Source: Clostridiaceae bacterium
GTDB lineage: Bacteria > Bacillota > Clostridia > DSM-8532
Direction: 5' to 3'
NCBI GenBank assembly: GCA_012839205.1
Contig: DUNT01000047.1
Span: forward strand, 1-40,905
DNA length: 40,905 nucleotides
The translations under genes were made by a program, and so were the position numbers. Below are positions 1,637 to 15,083 of this stretch, one piece after another. Under the pieces are notes generated by a model. The model was given only the letters and a program-made list of their open reading frames with translations, was not told the origin of the DNA and made no database searches. Position 1 is the first letter of the stretch. Every line of letters begins with the position of its first letter.

Positions 1637-2746
1637 ATGGCTGGAGTAACATTAAAGAATGTGTACAAAACATATCCAGGTGGAGTGACAGCTGTAAGTG
1701 ATTTCAATATCGATATTGAGGATAAAGAATTTATTATTCTCGTTGGGCCTTCCGGCTGCGGAAAAACTACAACACTTAGAATGATTGCAGGTCTTGAAGA
1801 AATAACGAAAGGCGAACTATATATAGGGGACAAGCTCTGTAATGATGTAGCACCTAAGGACAGAGATATAGCTATGGTATTCCAGAACTATGCTCTCTAT
1901 CCTCATATGACAGTATTCGACAATATGGCCTTTGGCCTTAAACTAAGAAAGACACCAAAAGAAGAAATAAAGAGAAGGGTTCACGAAGCAGCAAGGATTT
2001 TATCAATAGAGCATCTTCTTGACAGAAAGCCAAAGGCGCTTTCGGGCGGACAGAGGCAGCGTGTAGCACTGGGACGTGCTATTGTACGTGAGCCTAAGGT
2101 GTTTTTGATGGACGAGCCTCTTTCAAACCTTGATGCTAAGCTTAGAGTTCAAATGAGAACAGAGATTTCCAAACTTCATCAAAAGCTGAACACAACCTTT
2201 ATATATGTTACTCATGACCAGACTGAAGCTCTTACAATGGGTACCCGTATTGTAGTTATGAAGGACGGATTTATTCAACAAATAGACAGTCCACAGAAAC
2301 TCTACGACGAACCTGTGAATGTTTTTGTAGCAGGTTTTATTGGTAGTCCTCAAATGAATATGGCCGATGCGCTTGTTGAAAAACAGGGGGATAAGGTTAT
2401 GCTGAAATTTGGCTCATATTCACTGGAATTGCCGGAAAATAAGGCAACAGTACTTGAGAAACAAGGGTATATCGGAAAAGAAGTTATCTTTGGTATTCGT
2501 CCCGAGGATATTCACGATGAAGAGGAATGGCTGGCCAAAGGCAGCAGCACTCTTGATGCCAGTGTTGAGGTTACTGAGCGCTTAGGTTCCGAGACTTATC
2601 TCTATGTTCTTATTAATGATCTGAACTTTACTGCCCGTGTAAGTCCCAAGTCAAAGACAAAATCCGGAGAAACAATCAAAGTGGTATTTGATATTCCTCA
2701 TATCCATATATTTGATAAGGAGACTGAAAAGGCTATAGTACATTAA
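1637..2746 (+). CDS. ugpC: Sugar ABC transporter ATP-binding protein, UgpC/MsmX type
   Basis: This is the ATPase subunit of a CUT1-type carbohydrate importer, working at the inner face of the membrane with two permeases and a lipoprotein binder. The 369-aa protein has Walker A GPSGCGKTT (residues 37-45), Q-loop VFQNYALYPHM, signature LSGGQRQR, Walker B VFLMDEP and the H-loop THD. A C-terminal TOBE/OB regulatory region (about 240-369) ends the protein, as in UgpC, MalK and MsmX. AGGAGG lies 9 nt before the ATG. No permease or binding protein gene is nearby. The gene stands alone with its own terminator, as known for MsmX, a shared ATPase serving several sugar importers; that role is inferred. 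Confidence 0.93.
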   Translation: MAGVTLKNVYKTYPGGVTAVSDFNIDIEDKEFIILVGPSGCGKTTTLRMIAGLEEITKGELYIGDKLCNDVAPKDRDIAMVFQNYALYPHMTVFDNMAFGLKLRKTPKEEIKRRVHEAARILSIEHLLDRKPKALSGGQRQRVALGRAIVREPKVFLMDEPLSNLDAKLRVQMRTEISKLHQKLNTTFIYVTHDQTEALTMGTRIVVMKDGFIQQIDSPQKLYDEPVNVFVAGFIGSPQMNMADALVEKQGDKVMLKFGSYSLELPENKATVLEKQGYIGKEVIFGIRPEDIHDEEEWLAKGSSTLDASVEVTERLGSETYLYVLINDLNFTARVSPKSKTKSGETIKVVFDIPHIHIFDKETEKAIVH

Positions 2747-2789: not shown

Positions 2790-2803
2790 CAGACTGAAGA
2801 CAA

Positions 2804-2827
2804 AGCTCACCAAGGGTGGGCTTTTTT
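2804..2827 (+). terminator. Rho-independent terminator of the ABC ATPase gene
   Basis: Stem AGCTCACC/GGTGGGCT (8 bp, one G-T pair) with loop AAG, followed by six T. It separates the ATPase gene from the sigH transcription unit. Confidence 0.8.
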
Positions 2828-2913: not shown

Positions 2914-2942
2914 TTTTCATCAGTGCAGATGTGGAATAATAT
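2914..2942 (+). promoter_or_regulatory. Possible promoter of the P-loop/sigH unit
   Basis: TTTTCA, a 17-nt spacer and TAATAT lie about 64 nt before the TTG start at 3006, in an AT-rich gap after the preceding terminator. The match to sigma-A is moderate and no better pair was seen. Confidence 0.35.
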
Positions 2943-3005: not shown

Positions 3006-3839
3006 TTGAGACTTGTAGCGTTTGTCGGGCCAAGCGGATCGGGCAAAAGCCATCGTGCTTTGTGGGTCGCAAGAGAAAATAATCTGGACTATATAATAGA
3101 TGATGGTCTTTTAATTCATGAGAATAAAATAGTTGCAGGGAAATCTGCCAAAAAGGCTCCATCTAAAATTGGCTCTGTGAAGATGGCCCTCTTTTATGAC
3201 GAAGAGCACCAGGACAGTGTAAAAAAAGCTGTTAAGAAGTATCAACCTAAGGGTATACTGGTATTAGGCACATCTGACGGAATGGTGGACAGAATTGCGT
3301 CGGCCCTGGAACTTGGAGAGTATGACAAGAGAATATATATAGAAGATGTGGCCAGTCCATATGAGATAGAACAGGCTAAAAAAACCCGAATTGACCAGGG
3401 CAAGCATGTTATTCCGGTTCCCACTATGCAGTTAAAAAAGCAGTTTTCGGGTTATTTTTTAGACCCTTTGCAGCTTTTTAGAAGAAAAGGGAAGGGGCAG
3501 TTTCAGAATATTGGCGAAAAATCAGTGGTCAGGCCTACATTCAGCTATTTTGGGAATTATACAATATCCGACTATGCAATATATCAATTAGTCAACTATA
3601 ATATTGTTATTATGCCCCAGATGGAGAAAGTGTCCAGATTTCGTACCAGTAACACCCCTGATGGACTTTATATTGATATGGATGTTATAATGGTATTTGG
3701 TTACAATTTAATTGAAGCAGTTAAAGAAGCCAGAGAACAGATCATCAAGGAATTGGACAGATTTGCAGGTTTTAATGTAAATTCATTTAATATACACATT
3801 AAAAATTTAGTATTCAAAAAGAGTCCGCCGGATTTTTAA
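3006..3839 (+). CDS. P-loop protein with C-terminal Asp23/Gls24-like domain
   Basis: The 277-aa protein starts with a clean Walker A motif, GPSGSGKS (residues 8-15), and a hydrophobic strand GILVLGTSDG (83-92) suits a Walker B position. About residues 175-270 (VVRPTFSYFGNYTISDYAIYQL onward) look like an Asp23/Gls24 domain, a small family linked to cell envelope stress in Firmicutes. No signal peptide or membrane segment is seen, so it is probably cytoplasmic. The TTG start is chosen because GGAGG stands 8 nt upstream and the P-loop begins eight residues in. It ends 20 nt before sigH and is probably cotranscribed with it. Function is unknown; a nucleotide-dependent switch tied to the envelope or sporulation is my inference. 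Confidence 0.8.
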   Translation: MRLVAFVGPSGSGKSHRALWVARENNLDYIIDDGLLIHENKIVAGKSAKKAPSKIGSVKMALFYDEEHQDSVKKAVKKYQPKGILVLGTSDGMVDRIASALELGEYDKRIYIEDVASPYEIEQAKKTRIDQGKHVIPVPTMQLKKQFSGYFLDPLQLFRRKGKGQFQNIGEKSVVRPTFSYFGNYTISDYAIYQLVNYNIVIMPQMEKVSRFRTSNTPDGLYIDMDVIMVFGYNLIEAVKEAREQIIKELDRFAGFNVNSFNIHIKNLVFKKSPPDF

Positions 3840-3859
3840 TATTATGGAGGAAAACAAAA

Positions 3860-4516
3860 GTGCCTCGTTTGGGAAAATCTACAACAGACTACCTGAATAT
3901 GAGTGATGAAGAAGTTCTTTCATACGTTCATTCCGGATGCAAACGCGGGATGGAACATCTTATCGAAAAGTATAAGCCGCTGGTAAGAGCCAAGGCCAGA
4001 AGCTATTTTTTGGTGGGCGCCGACAGAGAGGATATTGTTCAGGAAGGCATGATTGGTCTTTTCAAGGCGGTTCGCGATTACAAGGATGATAAGAATATTC
4101 CCTTTAGAGTATTTGCGGAAATATGTATTACCCGCCAGATTATTACCGCTGTTAAAACAGCCACCAGACAAAAGCACATACCTTTGAATACATATGTTTC
4201 ACTTAACAGAAAGGTATTTGATGATAACTCGGATAAATCCCTGATTGAACTGGTACAGGAAGTATCTGTTTCTGATCCGGAAGAGCTTTTTATCAATAAG
4301 GAAGAGTATTCGTTTTTTGAAAACATGGTAATAGAGCTGTTAAGTCCTCTTGAAAGAGAAGTATTAAAAAAGTATTTGACAGGAACAAATTATCATGACA
4401 TTGCAAAACAGCTTAACAAGCCTGTTAAGTCAGTGGATAATGCACTTCAGCGGCTTAAGAAAAAAATAGAGAAGAGTATTCAGGAACTAAAGGCAGAAGA
4501 ATTAGAACAGTGTTAA
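3860..4516 (+). CDS. sigH: RNA polymerase sporulation sigma factor SigH
   Basis: SigH directs RNA polymerase to early sporulation and stationary-phase promoters. The protein is 218 aa, the same as Bacillus SigH. Region 2 contains DREDIVQEGMIGLFKAVRDY and the highly characteristic CITRQIITAVKTATRQKHIPLN. Region 4 has LSPLEREVLKKYLTGTNYHDIAKQL with the helix-turn-helix KPVKSVDNALQRLKKKI. The start is GTG behind GGAGG (about 9-nt spacing). It follows the P-loop/Asp23 gene by 20 nt. In Bacillus sigH sits near ribosomal and translation genes, so this neighbourhood differs. No Spo0A box was seen. Confidence 0.95.
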   Translation: MPRLGKSTTDYLNMSDEEVLSYVHSGCKRGMEHLIEKYKPLVRAKARSYFLVGADREDIVQEGMIGLFKAVRDYKDDKNIPFRVFAEICITRQIITAVKTATRQKHIPLNTYVSLNRKVFDDNSDKSLIELVQEVSVSDPEELFINKEEYSFFENMVIELLSPLEREVLKKYLTGTNYHDIAKQLNKPVKSVDNALQRLKKKIEKSIQELKAEELEQC

Positions 4517-4598
4517 AAAAATATTGGCCTGTTATTAAACAGACCAAAGAAAAAATGTGCTAAAAAGGAGGTAAAAGTATATAAAGGTATAGTGTTAT

Positions 4599-4626
4599 TA
4601 AAATTATATAAGAAAATTGTCGATAT
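4599..4626 (+). promoter_or_regulatory. SigD (sigma-28)-like promoter before hemerythrin
   Basis: TAAA (4599-4602), a 16-nt spacer and GTCGATAT (4619-4626) resemble the flagellar consensus TAAA-N15-GCCGATAA, with two changes in the -10 and one extra spacer base. It would give a leader of about 70 nt for the hemerythrin gene at 4701. Some hemerythrins belong to motility or chemotaxis regulons, so the match makes sense but is weak alone. Confidence 0.35.
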
Positions 4627-4700
4627 AGCAAGAACTTTTGGATAATTAGTACAAATAGTACAAAAAGTCATTAAATTATATTGGGGGGGTTGATTTTATT

Positions 4701-5123
4701 ATGATTATTAAATGGAGGCCTGAGTATAGCTGCTACGATAAAACAATTGATGAACAGCATAAACAACTGATTGATATGATTAATGAAATGTATACGCTGT
4801 CTCTATATGATGATCATATCGATCGTTACGACAGTATAGTAGAGGTTTTTTCACGTTTAAAGGACTATGCTGTTTACCACTTCAGTCATGAGGAAAAGAT
4901 GTTTACAGAACATGATTATGATTCTTTTAATACTAAATTACAAATTCTCGAACATAAAGGCTTTGTAAACAAAATAGCATCTATAGATTTATATGAAGTG
5001 GACGAAAACCAGAATGAAACTATCTCCAATGTGTTAGACTTTTTAAGTAAATGGTTGGAACATCATATTTTAGAAGTAGATAAAAAATTCGGAGAGTTTT
5101 TAATAGCGAAATATGAAAAATAA
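4701..5123 (+). CDS. Bacteriohemerythrin with a His-to-Gln ligand change
   Basis: Hemerythrins are four-helix proteins that bind O2 at a di-iron centre; in anaerobes they are thought to carry, sense or scavenge oxygen. The 140-aa single-domain protein opens with MIIKWRPEYS. It has His20 (DEQHKQLID), His60 and Glu64 (HFSHEEKMF), His85 (EHKGF), and His122 with Asp127 (HHILEVDKKF). The position four residues before His85, normally the first His of HxxxH, is Gln81. So six of the seven usual ligands are present. A GGGGGG ribosome site precedes the ATG. The gene stands alone after sigH, with a possible SigD-type promoter. Confidence 0.92.
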   Translation: MIIKWRPEYSCYDKTIDEQHKQLIDMINEMYTLSLYDDHIDRYDSIVEVFSRLKDYAVYHFSHEEKMFTEHDYDSFNTKLQILEHKGFVNKIASIDLYEVDENQNETISNVLDFLSKWLEHHILEVDKKFGEFLIAKYEK

Positions 5124-5142
5124 AAGCGACAATCGTGATAGG

Positions 5143-5363
5143 ATAACCTCTCCCGTTACCGAAGATGTTATCCTGAGGGTAGCACAGCGGAGTCGAAGGA
5201 TCTTTCACGTTAACGCATAAGATTCTTCGATGACGCTCAGAATGACACAGGGACTCAAAATGACAATAAGGTTCCAGAGAGCATTGAATCAATAAGCAGC
5301 TGCCGTCTGGCAACGGCTTAAAGCAATAAATTGCTTTACTGAACTTATGATATAATATTTATT
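5143..5363 (+). repeat. Dispersed repeat copy B, about 220 bp, ending in a promoter
   Basis: From ATAACCTC (5143) to the AT-rich end near 5363 this matches 40556-40803 in reverse orientation along nearly its whole length, with small indels. Order of parts: CCCGTTACCGAAGATG, the arm ATCCTGAG...GAAGGATCTT, a GTTAAC centre, the arm AAGATTCTTCG...CTCAGAATGACA, GGGACTCAAAAT, GCATTGAATCA, a small hairpin GCCGT/ACGGC, then TAAAGCAATAAATTGCTTTA and GAACTTATGATATAAT. No reading frame in it looks coding. It fills the gap between hemerythrin and zapA. Confidence 0.85.
5348..5356 (+). promoter_or_regulatory. Extended -10 promoter at the end of repeat B, reading into zapA
   Basis: TGATATAAT is an exact extended -10 (TG-N-TATAAT), placed 77 nt before the zapA start. 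No good -35 sits 17 nt upstream, but extended -10 promoters need it less. The same sequence ends repeat E in front of the DUF362 gene. Confidence 0.5.
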
Positions 5364-5432
5364 ATGAAATAGAAAATGATAGAGATCTGCCGACATTACA
5401 TAAGAAAAAACCTTTTGAATGGAGATGGTATC

Positions 5433-5849
5433 TTGGCTGAAAAAAATAAAGTAGCTGTTCGCATTGCAGGCAATGAATATGTAATAACCGGGTCCGAGTC
5501 TCCAGAATACATACAGAAAATTGCTCTTTTTGTGGATAGAAAGGTAATGGAGATAACAAGGAGAAATCATCTCCTAAGTACTTCCATGGCATCTGTTCTG
5601 GCTGCCATAAATATGGCAGATGAAATGTTCCGTGCAAATGAGGAATTGAAAAACACTGCTAATGACTTATCGGAACTAAAGAAGAAGCATCAGGAGCTCA
5701 AGGAAGAAGCACAGAGGATTAAGACTGAAAATGCGAAACTGAAGGAAAGGGAATCCCAGCTTCGCATAGAACTGACAAGACGTGAAACTGAACTAAAAGA
5801 AGTCAGAAACACTCTGAATACTATTTCTAACACAAAGAACAATAATTAA
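5433..5849 (+). CDS. zapA: Cell division protein ZapA
   Basis: ZapA binds FtsZ and promotes Z-ring bundling at midcell. The 138-aa product begins AEKNKVAVRIAGNEYVITG after the initiator, followed by the family pattern EYIQKIALFVDRKVMEI and SVLAAINMADEMF. From about residue 65 to 125 it is a charged coiled coil (ELKKKHQELKEEAQRIK), longer than in classical ZapA but common in Clostridia. I chose TTG at 5433, with GGAGATGG 4-5 nt upstream, instead of the ATG at 5376, which has no ribosome site and would add 19 unrelated residues. It heads a likely operon running to 10619. Confidence 0.88.
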   Translation: MAEKNKVAVRIAGNEYVITGSESPEYIQKIALFVDRKVMEITRRNHLLSTSMASVLAAINMADEMFRANEELKNTANDLSELKKKHQELKEEAQRIKTENAKLKERESQLRIELTRRETELKEVRNTLNTISNTKNNN

Positions 5850-12853: not shown

Positions 12854-14245
12854 TTACTCTTTATTCTTAATATACTCGTCAATGGCCGCTGCTGCTTTTT
12901 TGCCAGCCCCCATGGCCAGAATAACAGTGGCAGCACCGGTAACTGCATCTCCACCTGCAAATACACCTTCTTTGCTTGTCTGACCGGTTTCTTCATCAGC
13001 AACGATACATCCCCATTTGTTTGTGGAAAGATCGGGGGTAGTGCTGCGAATTAAAGGATTAGGAGATGTTCCGATTGACATAATTACTGTATCTACATCG
13101 ATTACATGCTCACTGCCTTCTTTGGCAATTGGACGGCGACGGCCGGAGGCGTCAGCTTCACCTAATTCCATTTCCACACACTCAATTCCCTTAACCCAGC
13201 CTTCATCATCACCGAGAATTCGGGTAGGATTTGTAAGAACCTTAAATATTATTCCTTCTTCCTTGGCATGATGGATTTCCTCAAGACGGGCAGGCATTTC
13301 AGCTTCGGAGCGTCTGTAAATTATATAAACTTTTTCTGCACCTAAGCGTTTGGCGCATCTTGCAGCATCCATTGCTACATTTCCGCCTCCAACAACCGCT
13401 ATGGCATTTCCATGCTTAATAGGGGTTTCGGCTCCTTCTTTGTAGGCTTTCATAAGATTAATACGGGTCAGGAACTCATTGGCTGAATAAACCCCGTTTA
13501 AGTTCTCGCCGGGAATATTCATAAAAGTTGGAAGCCCTGCGCCTGAACCAATGAATACAGCATCAAAGCCCTCTTCAAACAGCTCATCAATAGTCAGGAC
13601 TTTACCGATAACCATATTTGTTTGTATCTTAACACCTTGCTCTAATAAAACGTCAATTTCTTTCTGAACCAGGCTTTTAGGAAGCCTGAACTCAGGTATT
13701 CCGTATACCAGAACACCACCGGCAAGGTGAAAGGCTTCGAAGATTGTTATTTCGTAGCCCAGCTTGACCAAATCTCCGGCACAGGCTAAACCTGCGGGGC
13801 CGGAGCCAATAACAGCTACCTTTTTGCCGTTGCTGGGGACTTTTTCATAATCCCTTTTGGCGTTATTTATAGCCCAATCAGCAGCAAACCGTTCAAGACG
13901 ACCGATTGCAACAGACTCTCCCTTAATTGCCCGCACACATCTTTCCTCACACTGAGTTTCCTGCGGACACACACGCCCGCAAACAGCCGGAAGACTATTG
14001 GTTTCCAGAATTTTATCATATGCTTCCTCAAATTTGCCCTCTGTTATAAGGGTAATAAATTCGGGAATTTGCACATTAACTGGGCAACCTGCGACACAGG
14101 GCTTATGCTTACAGTTTAAACAGCGCTGTGCTTCTTCTATAGCCATTTCCTCGGTATAGCCCAGAGCCACTTCTTCAAAATTCTTGTTACGTACCTCAGG
14201 GTCCTGTTCAGGCATTGATACTTTTTTTAATGACATATTAGGCAT
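12854..14245 (-). CDS. nfnB: NfnB-type large subunit (GltD-like FAD/Fe-S oxidoreductase)
   Basis: The large subunit of the NADH-dependent reduced ferredoxin:NADP+ oxidoreductase, a flavin-based electron-bifurcating enzyme that makes NADPH from NADH and ferredoxin. The 463-aa protein has an N-terminal Fe-S domain (CLNCKHKPCVAGCPVNVQIP near 42-61, then CGRVCPQETQCEERC near 90-104). An FAD fold follows (IGSGPAGLACAGDL near 147), then an NADP fold (VVGGGNVAMDAARCAKRLGA near 287). Alone it could be called homotetrameric glutamate synthase GltA or SudA. The overlapping nfnA-like gene makes the Nfn assignment much stronger. It overlaps nfnA by 8 nt; GGAGGG precedes the ATG. Confidence 0.88.
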   Translation of the reverse strand: MPNMSLKKVSMPEQDPEVRNKNFEEVALGYTEEMAIEEAQRCLNCKHKPCVAGCPVNVQIPEFITLITEGKFEEAYDKILETNSLPAVCGRVCPQETQCEERCVRAIKGESVAIGRLERFAADWAINNAKRDYEKVPSNGKKVAVIGSGPAGLACAGDLVKLGYEITIFEAFHLAGGVLVYGIPEFRLPKSLVQKEIDVLLEQGVKIQTNMVIGKVLTIDELFEEGFDAVFIGSGAGLPTFMNIPGENLNGVYSANEFLTRINLMKAYKEGAETPIKHGNAIAVVGGGNVAMDAARCAKRLGAEKVYIIYRRSEAEMPARLEEIHHAKEEGIIFKVLTNPTRILGDDEGWVKGIECVEMELGEADASGRRRPIAKEGSEHVIDVDTVIMSIGTSPNPLIRSTTPDLSTNKWGCIVADEETGQTSKEGVFAGGDAVTGAATVILAMGAGKKAAAAIDEYIKNKE

Positions 14246-15083
14246 TTGTTTTACCCTCCAGTCTGCATTGATGTCTCTCTATTGCTGCTTTTTCGTCTCT
14301 CTTGTACATTGAAAGGCGTCGGATAAGTTCATTAAAATCTACTTGGTGACCGTCAAAATCAGGACCGTCAACACAGGCAAACTTAGTTTCTCCTCCCACC
14401 GTTACACGACAACCGCCGCACATTCCTGTTCCGTCAATCATAATTGGATTAAGGCTTACTATAGTCTTGATGCCGTAAGGTCTGGTAACTTCAGAAACGA
14501 CTTTCATCATAATAGGAGGGCCAATGGCTATAACCACATCATATTCATTACCTTCATCAAGCAATTTTTTCAGCACATCTGATACAAAACCTTTTGTCCC
14601 GTAGGAACCATCATCGGTGGTAATAAATAACCTGTCAGATACAGCCGTCATTTCCTTTTCAAGAAACAGAATTTCCTTATTCCTGAATCCGGCAATAAAG
14701 TCCACTGAGACACCCATACTATGAAGTTTTTTAGCCTGTGGGTAAGCTATTGCCACTCCTAAACCTCCGCCTATAACGGCAGCTTTTTTTACATCTTCAA
14801 AATGAGAAGCTACCCCCAATGGACCCACAAAGTCGGCCAAATTATCTCCTTCGGTCATTTTCCCAAGTCTTATTGTTGTAGCACCAACTTCCTGGAAAAT
14901 TATTGTGACGGTTCCCTTTTCCCTGTCATAATCGGCTATGGTAAATGGGATACGCTCACCGTCTTCATCTACGCGGAGAATAATAAATTGACCGGGTTCA
15001 GCTTTACGTGCCACGTAAGGTGCTTCTATCTCAAGGAGTTTAACCTGAGAATTCAATACTTCTTTTCTGACAATTTTATACAT
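14238..15083 (-). CDS. nfnA: NfnA-type small subunit (ferredoxin-NADP reductase-like)
   Basis: The NADH-binding small subunit of the Nfn transhydrogenase. The 281-aa protein has a ferredoxin-reductase FAD domain with RIPFTIAD (residues 44-51), an NAD-binding part (AAVIGGGLGVAIAYPQAKKL and VIAIGPPIMMKVV), and a C-terminal [2Fe-2S] site in MCGGCRVTVGGETKFACVDG. It belongs to the PyrK/SudB family; pairing with a GltD-like partner in the order small-large is the Nfn arrangement known from clostridia. GGGAGGG lies 7 nt before the ATG. A strong promoter lies about 115 nt upstream. A sulfide dehydrogenase reading is possible, as SudAB is the same protein family. Confidence 0.87.
   Translation of the reverse strand: MYKIVRKEVLNSQVKLLEIEAPYVARKAEPGQFIILRVDEDGERIPFTIADYDREKGTVTIIFQEVGATTIRLGKMTEGDNLADFVGPLGVASHFEDVKKAAVIGGGLGVAIAYPQAKKLHSMGVSVDFIAGFRNKEILFLEKEMTAVSDRLFITTDDGSYGTKGFVSDVLKKLLDEGNEYDVVIAIGPPIMMKVVSEVTRPYGIKTIVSLNPIMIDGTGMCGGCRVTVGGETKFACVDGPDFDGHQVDFNELIRRLSMYKRDEKAAIERHQCRLEGKTNA

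Follow-up and report, generated by a model that had tools for sequence, protein, structure and literature searches.

The fusion gene and its surroundings

The window, by which we mean the whole stretch of 40,905 nucleotides that was analysed, encodes at 3006..3839 of its forward strand a protein of 277 amino acids, with a TTG start codon, a GGAGGA ribosome-binding site ahead of it, and an N-terminus that reads MRLVAFVGPSGSGKSH. Two domains are joined in this protein. The first is a P-loop domain of the kinase-like NTPase type (residues 1–133, 3006..3404), placed by an AlphaFold2 model with weak Foldseek and VIA fold matches, and the second is an Asp23 domain (residues 186–270, 3561..3815), identified by Pfam, hhalign, and AlphaFold2, with an alpha-beta-beta-alpha-beta order and a predicted fold like that of CDF C-terminal domains. 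A conserved connecting region (residues 134–185, 3405..3560) lies between them. All of these features are on the forward strand, as are sigH, ugpC, and the hairpin and promoter-like block described next.

The fusion gene stops at 3839 and sigH (3860..4516) begins 20 nt further on, the spacing that had been read from the sequence alone; the interval first singled out, 3006–4516, takes in the two genes. The sigH product scores 307.5 bits against NF006148 (cut-off 208) and 289.0 against TIGR02859, slightly below that model's cut-off of 294.8. It is the sole SigH-type sigma factor found in the host genome, and across the family sigH is present in a single copy per genome, so the neighbour of the fusion gene is a genuine SigH. 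In this genus, sigH has the fusion gene on one side and bacteriohemerythrin, then zapA, on the other (3860–5849 in the window); the usual surroundings of sigH are secE and rlmB.

On the other side lies a gene for a UgpC/MalK-type ABC ATPase (1637..2746), followed by a terminator-like hairpin with a T run (2803..2827; −16 kcal/mol, z −4.3) that separates ugpC from the fusion–sigH unit. About 65–75 nt upstream of the fusion start codon is a promoter-like block, GTGGAATAAT (2931..2940), that can be read as an extended −10 (TGG-AATAAT) and is near-identical in 10 congeners. A second similar copy, TGTGGTAATA, is found at about 2848–2857, roughly 85 nt upstream of the first. The hairpin, the conserved promoter-like block, and a 20-nt gap that leaves no room for a second promoter make it likely, as judged from these sequence signals, that the fusion gene and sigH are co-transcribed in this genus. 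We rejected a SigH promoter before the fusion gene: GTGGAAT fits the −10 of the consensus used (AGGA −35, GAAT-type −10), but a correctly spaced AGGA −35 is absent and one congener breaks GAAT.

Elsewhere in the window, some 9 kb away from this locus, the reverse strand encodes a GltA/NfnB-like flavoprotein (12854–15083; Fer4_20, Pyr_redox_2), and the start of its gene is overlapped by a 281-aa open reading frame, possibly NfnA. No RNA families or tRNAs were found in the window, and a defence system was discarded as a candidate, PADLOC having given one P-loop match only, which is meaningless.

The Asp23 and P-loop domains

Asp23 (PF03780) is the sole Pfam family above its cut-off in the fusion protein, by a narrow margin (28.7 bits against 28, residues 218–268), and all 54 aligned fusion relatives match it (E-values up to 0.1, the best 2e-11). 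When the profile of the fusion family was compared by hhalign with a canonical profile built from single-domain Asp23 proteins of the host's bacterial family, the match extended over residues 180–277, the whole domain (probability 97%, E=3e-11). AlphaFold2 models residues 186–270 as alpha-beta-beta-alpha-beta, with pLDDT mostly above 75, and the model matches the C-terminal domains of the CDF proteins MamM, YiiP, and CzcD at Z of about 10–11; the best of these matches is to MamM 6hhs (Z 11.1, rmsd 2.0, 80 of 83 residues). The sequence-only reading had called this end of the protein Asp23-like, and the profile comparison confirms the kinship, while structure prediction gives the domain a CDF-like fold. 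The assignment of that fold rests on the model, because sequence searches found no relative of solved structure for canonical Asp23; the whole protein and the N-terminal domain gave only P-loop-level or chance matches in such searches. CDF C-terminal domains are dimerisation modules. Some 80 residues of the fusion match them in predicted fold, but identity is about 10% and the fusion has no transporter part. The predicted relation between the Asp23 and CDF C-terminal-domain folds was found in no paper searched.

With canonical Asp23/Gls24 proteins (Staphylococcus aureus Asp23, Bacillus subtilis YqhY and YloU), the C-terminal 85–100 residues of the fusion align throughout. The canonical proteins, however, have a long loop with a conserved N-x-S-x-VLGRKN(P), where the fusion shows a gap of about 18 residues in the alignment. 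This loop is a trait of canonical members in this bacterial family and falls outside Pfam's definition; its absence marks the fused Asp23 domain as a divergent branch. The fusion also carries an extra 180-residue P-loop domain in front, which canonical Asp23 lacks, and accBC and yloV are not seen beside the fusion gene, in contrast to the canonical members. AmaP tethers S. aureus Asp23 to the membrane; this Asp23 forms filaments in vitro and is described as acting in envelope homeostasis (PMC6954212), and B. subtilis YqhY has been proposed to restrain acetyl-CoA carboxylase (PMC5437119).

The N-terminal domain was modelled separately because rows for MamM, YiiP, and similar proteins filled the first fold search. 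Modelled alone (AlphaFold2, 113 sequences), its strands and helices follow the P-loop order with pLDDT of about 85–95 up to residue 130; residues ~137–185 are of low confidence in the models, with pLDDT below 50 at ~141–155 and 171–186. The perfect Walker A noted earlier at the very N-terminus is well founded: GPSGSGKS (residues 8–15, 3027..3050; family consensus GxSG[ST]GKS) stands at the first strand-helix turn, between strand 2–7 and helix 14–24, and its glycines, lysine, and final serine (G8, G11, G13, K14, S15) do not vary. They belong to 19 positions that are invariant among the 113 sequences. Of the remainder, D32, D33, G34, and K49 fall in the block IIDDGLLI...AGKSAK (residues 30–49, 3093..3152), H134, P137, and G183 in the connecting region, where R176 and P177 are nearly invariant, and A61, T89, S90, M93, L101, A124, and R128 elsewhere in the domain. 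Conservation is far lower in the C-terminal domain than in the N-terminal half. The third strand (83–88) is followed by the invariant T89-S90 and a variable D91, and the invariant acids D32-D33 come after strand 2.

The folds retrieved with the N-terminal domain are those of small-molecule, nucleotide, and polynucleotide kinases. Structure prediction thus gave a P-loop order and a kinase-like fold for this part of the protein, but the matches themselves are weak (Z 5–6, the best 6.3; no Foldseek E below 1e-3). Gluconate kinase, adenylate kinase, and Clp1 have the Walker A and the overall alpha/beta order in common with it, whereas its invariant IDDG, AGxSAK, GTSxxM, and R...GKHxIPVP motifs fit no named family found. 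By sequence, no kinase family scored above its cut-off for the fusion protein or its relatives.

Distribution and gene neighbours of the fusion

A search with the single sequence detected the protein in 52 of 61 relatives; in one genome (G048) the match covers the Asp23 part only. Across a sample of the phylum, the full-length fusion is present in 127 of 299 genomes, with E-values of at most 3.4e-57 and every match reaching at least profile position 255. In a second sample, of 398 genomes, the N-terminal domain occurs in 168 (one of them on a weak match, 4e-7), in one copy each save for one genome, in which two contigs carry identical matches. The open frames that hold the listed N-terminal domain matches are all 269 aa or longer, enough room for both domains, and no stand-alone N-terminal domain was seen among the matches listed for these 398 genomes; its fusion to Asp23 is obligate. 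Relatives down to 33–37% identity across the phylum keep the invariant motifs, so the fusion sequence is not due to chance. The P-loop/Asp23 fusion is a real, well-conserved, and old clostridial family. A two-pattern scan of viral contigs showed no carriage of the fusion. Canonical single-domain Asp23 is encoded, in one copy, by 30 of 31 family relatives of the host. A search of the host genome did not find it; since 30 of 31 relatives possess one, an assembly gap is the most likely reason.

The gene had been described as unannotated-looking, which holds only in part. NCBI already labels a relative with the Asp23/Gls24 name: on a Monoglobus plasmid or chromid, where the fusion stands between rex and a DNA glycosylase gene, it is annotated ‘Asp23/Gls24 family envelope stress response protein’. 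In the open-licence literature, on the other hand, we came across no account of the P-loop domain, nor of the P-loop/Asp23 fusion as a family.

Within the GTDB family of the host, the fusion and sigH are adjacent and co-oriented in 29 of the 30 genomes that have both on one contig, the exception having them about 7.7 kb apart. At the level of open reading frames the gap between them ranges from −32 to 270 nt (25 loci), where negative values reflect mechanically extended ORF starts. Beyond this family the pair disappears: sigH was within five genes of the fusion at none of 82 loci, and in the sister family, the only other family of the order among the genomes compared, the two genes are on different contigs while ugpC is still upstream of the fusion. 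The pair is thus conserved in one GTDB family but not outside it; most simply read, the two genes became neighbours at the root of that family and then stayed paired. Nor is the fusion associated with Spo0A, which is found in 257 of 299 genomes, comprising 111 of the 127 with the fusion and 146 of the 172 without it (Fisher p=0.61, uncorrected for phylogeny; both counts were read off result tables for the same genomes).

At the 82 loci outside the family, the same-strand neighbours within two genes of the fusion include ogg (9 loci), rex (7), NfnA-like (5), NfnB/GltA-like (5), and PHP-like (5) genes, and NuoE-like, NuoF-like, SpoVS, and YmdB genes (4 each). The families behind these names were checked, except for the PHP-like gene, for which Pfam gave nothing at 1e-8. 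The opposite strand often carries DnaD. When the range is widened to three genes, rex, ogg, NfnA/NfnB-like, or NuoE/NuoF-like genes accompany the fusion on the same strand at 20 of the 82 loci. The neighbours are mixed, but a redox setting of the fusion gene is suggested.

Proposed function and its alternatives

The reading that we prefer, with about an even chance of being right, is that the protein is a two-domain, nucleotide-driven enzyme or switch that works through an Asp23 dimer or oligomer. A kinase-like P-loop domain that binds nucleotide would be permanently joined to an Asp23 domain serving as a dimeric or oligomeric scaffold, by analogy with the membrane-anchored filaments of single-domain Asp23, and nucleotide binding or hydrolysis by the N-terminal domain, or phosphoryl transfer to a substrate, would be coupled to the state of Asp23 assembly. 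In clostridia the protein would serve general vegetative physiology, and its place ahead of sigH would be a family-specific genome arrangement in which the two genes are co-transcribed and not functionally tied.

The invariance of the Walker A together with that of D32, D33, K49, T89, S90, M93, R128, H134, and P137, set against a much less conserved C-terminal domain, is what a working nucleotide site would show, although no canonical Walker B acid can be recognised at the end of the third strand. The obligate fusion and the predicted dimerisation-type fold of the Asp23 half also support this reading. The N-terminal domain may be a kinase or an ATPase, its fold matches being weak. Residues ~137–185, modelled with low confidence, are a likely coupling region. 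Filament formation may not carry over to the fusion, since the fused Asp23 domain has no GRKN(P) loop.

The chief rival, possible but clearly less probable, is that the N-terminal domain works in central or redox metabolism as a small-molecule or nucleotide kinase and uses Asp23 as a mere dimerisation module with no envelope role. The top fold matches, which are gluconate, cytidylate, shikimate, adenylate, and polynucleotide kinases, point in this direction, as do the redox-type neighbours at 20 of the 82 loci and the predicted CDF dimerisation fold of the C-terminal domain. The neighbours are heterogeneous, however, with dnaD/dnaC, spoVS/ymdB, and sigH settings also common, and the redox context may go back to common descent within a few lineages; these numbers are uncorrected for phylogeny. 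Nor does any kinase family score above its cut-off by sequence.

The sequence-only reading had gone further and proposed a control link with SigH, in which the fusion protein would control the sigma factor, or be co-controlled with it, and so tie the state of the envelope or of energy supply to a stationary-phase and sporulation sigma factor. We consider this unlikely, and reject it as a general function. The 20-nt gap and the probable single operon speak for it, as does the retention of the pair with a single-copy, and hence real, SigH in 29 of 30 family genomes despite varying gap lengths. Yet the adjacency is lineage-bound, being absent from all 82 loci outside the family, the sister family included, in which the ugpC–fusion linkage is intact, and the fusion shows no association with Spo0A. 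The sigH adjacency is a quirk of one family.

Least probable is that the N-terminal half joined to Asp23 is a divergent transferase domain of the MiaA/IPT type. The motifs are attractive (IIDDGLLI...AGKSAK resembles MiaA IISADSMQIY...IGTAKP, and LGTS resembles GGT), 29 of the 113 family sequences match MiaA weakly (best 3e-5) and 11 of 54 relatives match IPT, and an hhalign alignment covers 167 columns with MiaA but 27 with adenylate kinase. Once the P-loop is taken out, however, the MiaA score (19.1) does not stand above that of column-shuffled controls, 3 of 40 of which reach it, and the best 50 VIA rows hold no MiaA or IPT structure, although one IPT (2ze7) is at Foldseek rank 21. We therefore assign no kinase family to the N-terminal domain.

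It is thus the joined protein, and not a sporulation link, that is of interest, and the sigH angle carries little weight beyond one family. Little is understood of Asp23 proteins, which are widespread and abundant, and in the literature searched we found neither a partner enzyme nor a nucleotide switch for them. One form of the nucleotide-driven enzyme or switch that we favour, which we put forward tentatively and regard as rather improbable, is a regulator of Asp23 assembly, in which an Asp23-type scaffold would polymerise or be released when NTP is bound or hydrolysed. If true, this would be the first known switch for Asp23 proteins, present in about two fifths of clostridia. The obligate fusion in about 40% of the phylum genomes sampled hints strongly that NTP binding or phosphoryl transfer can be coupled to the function of Asp23, and with it a single, tractable protein is at hand in which that coupling may be tested.
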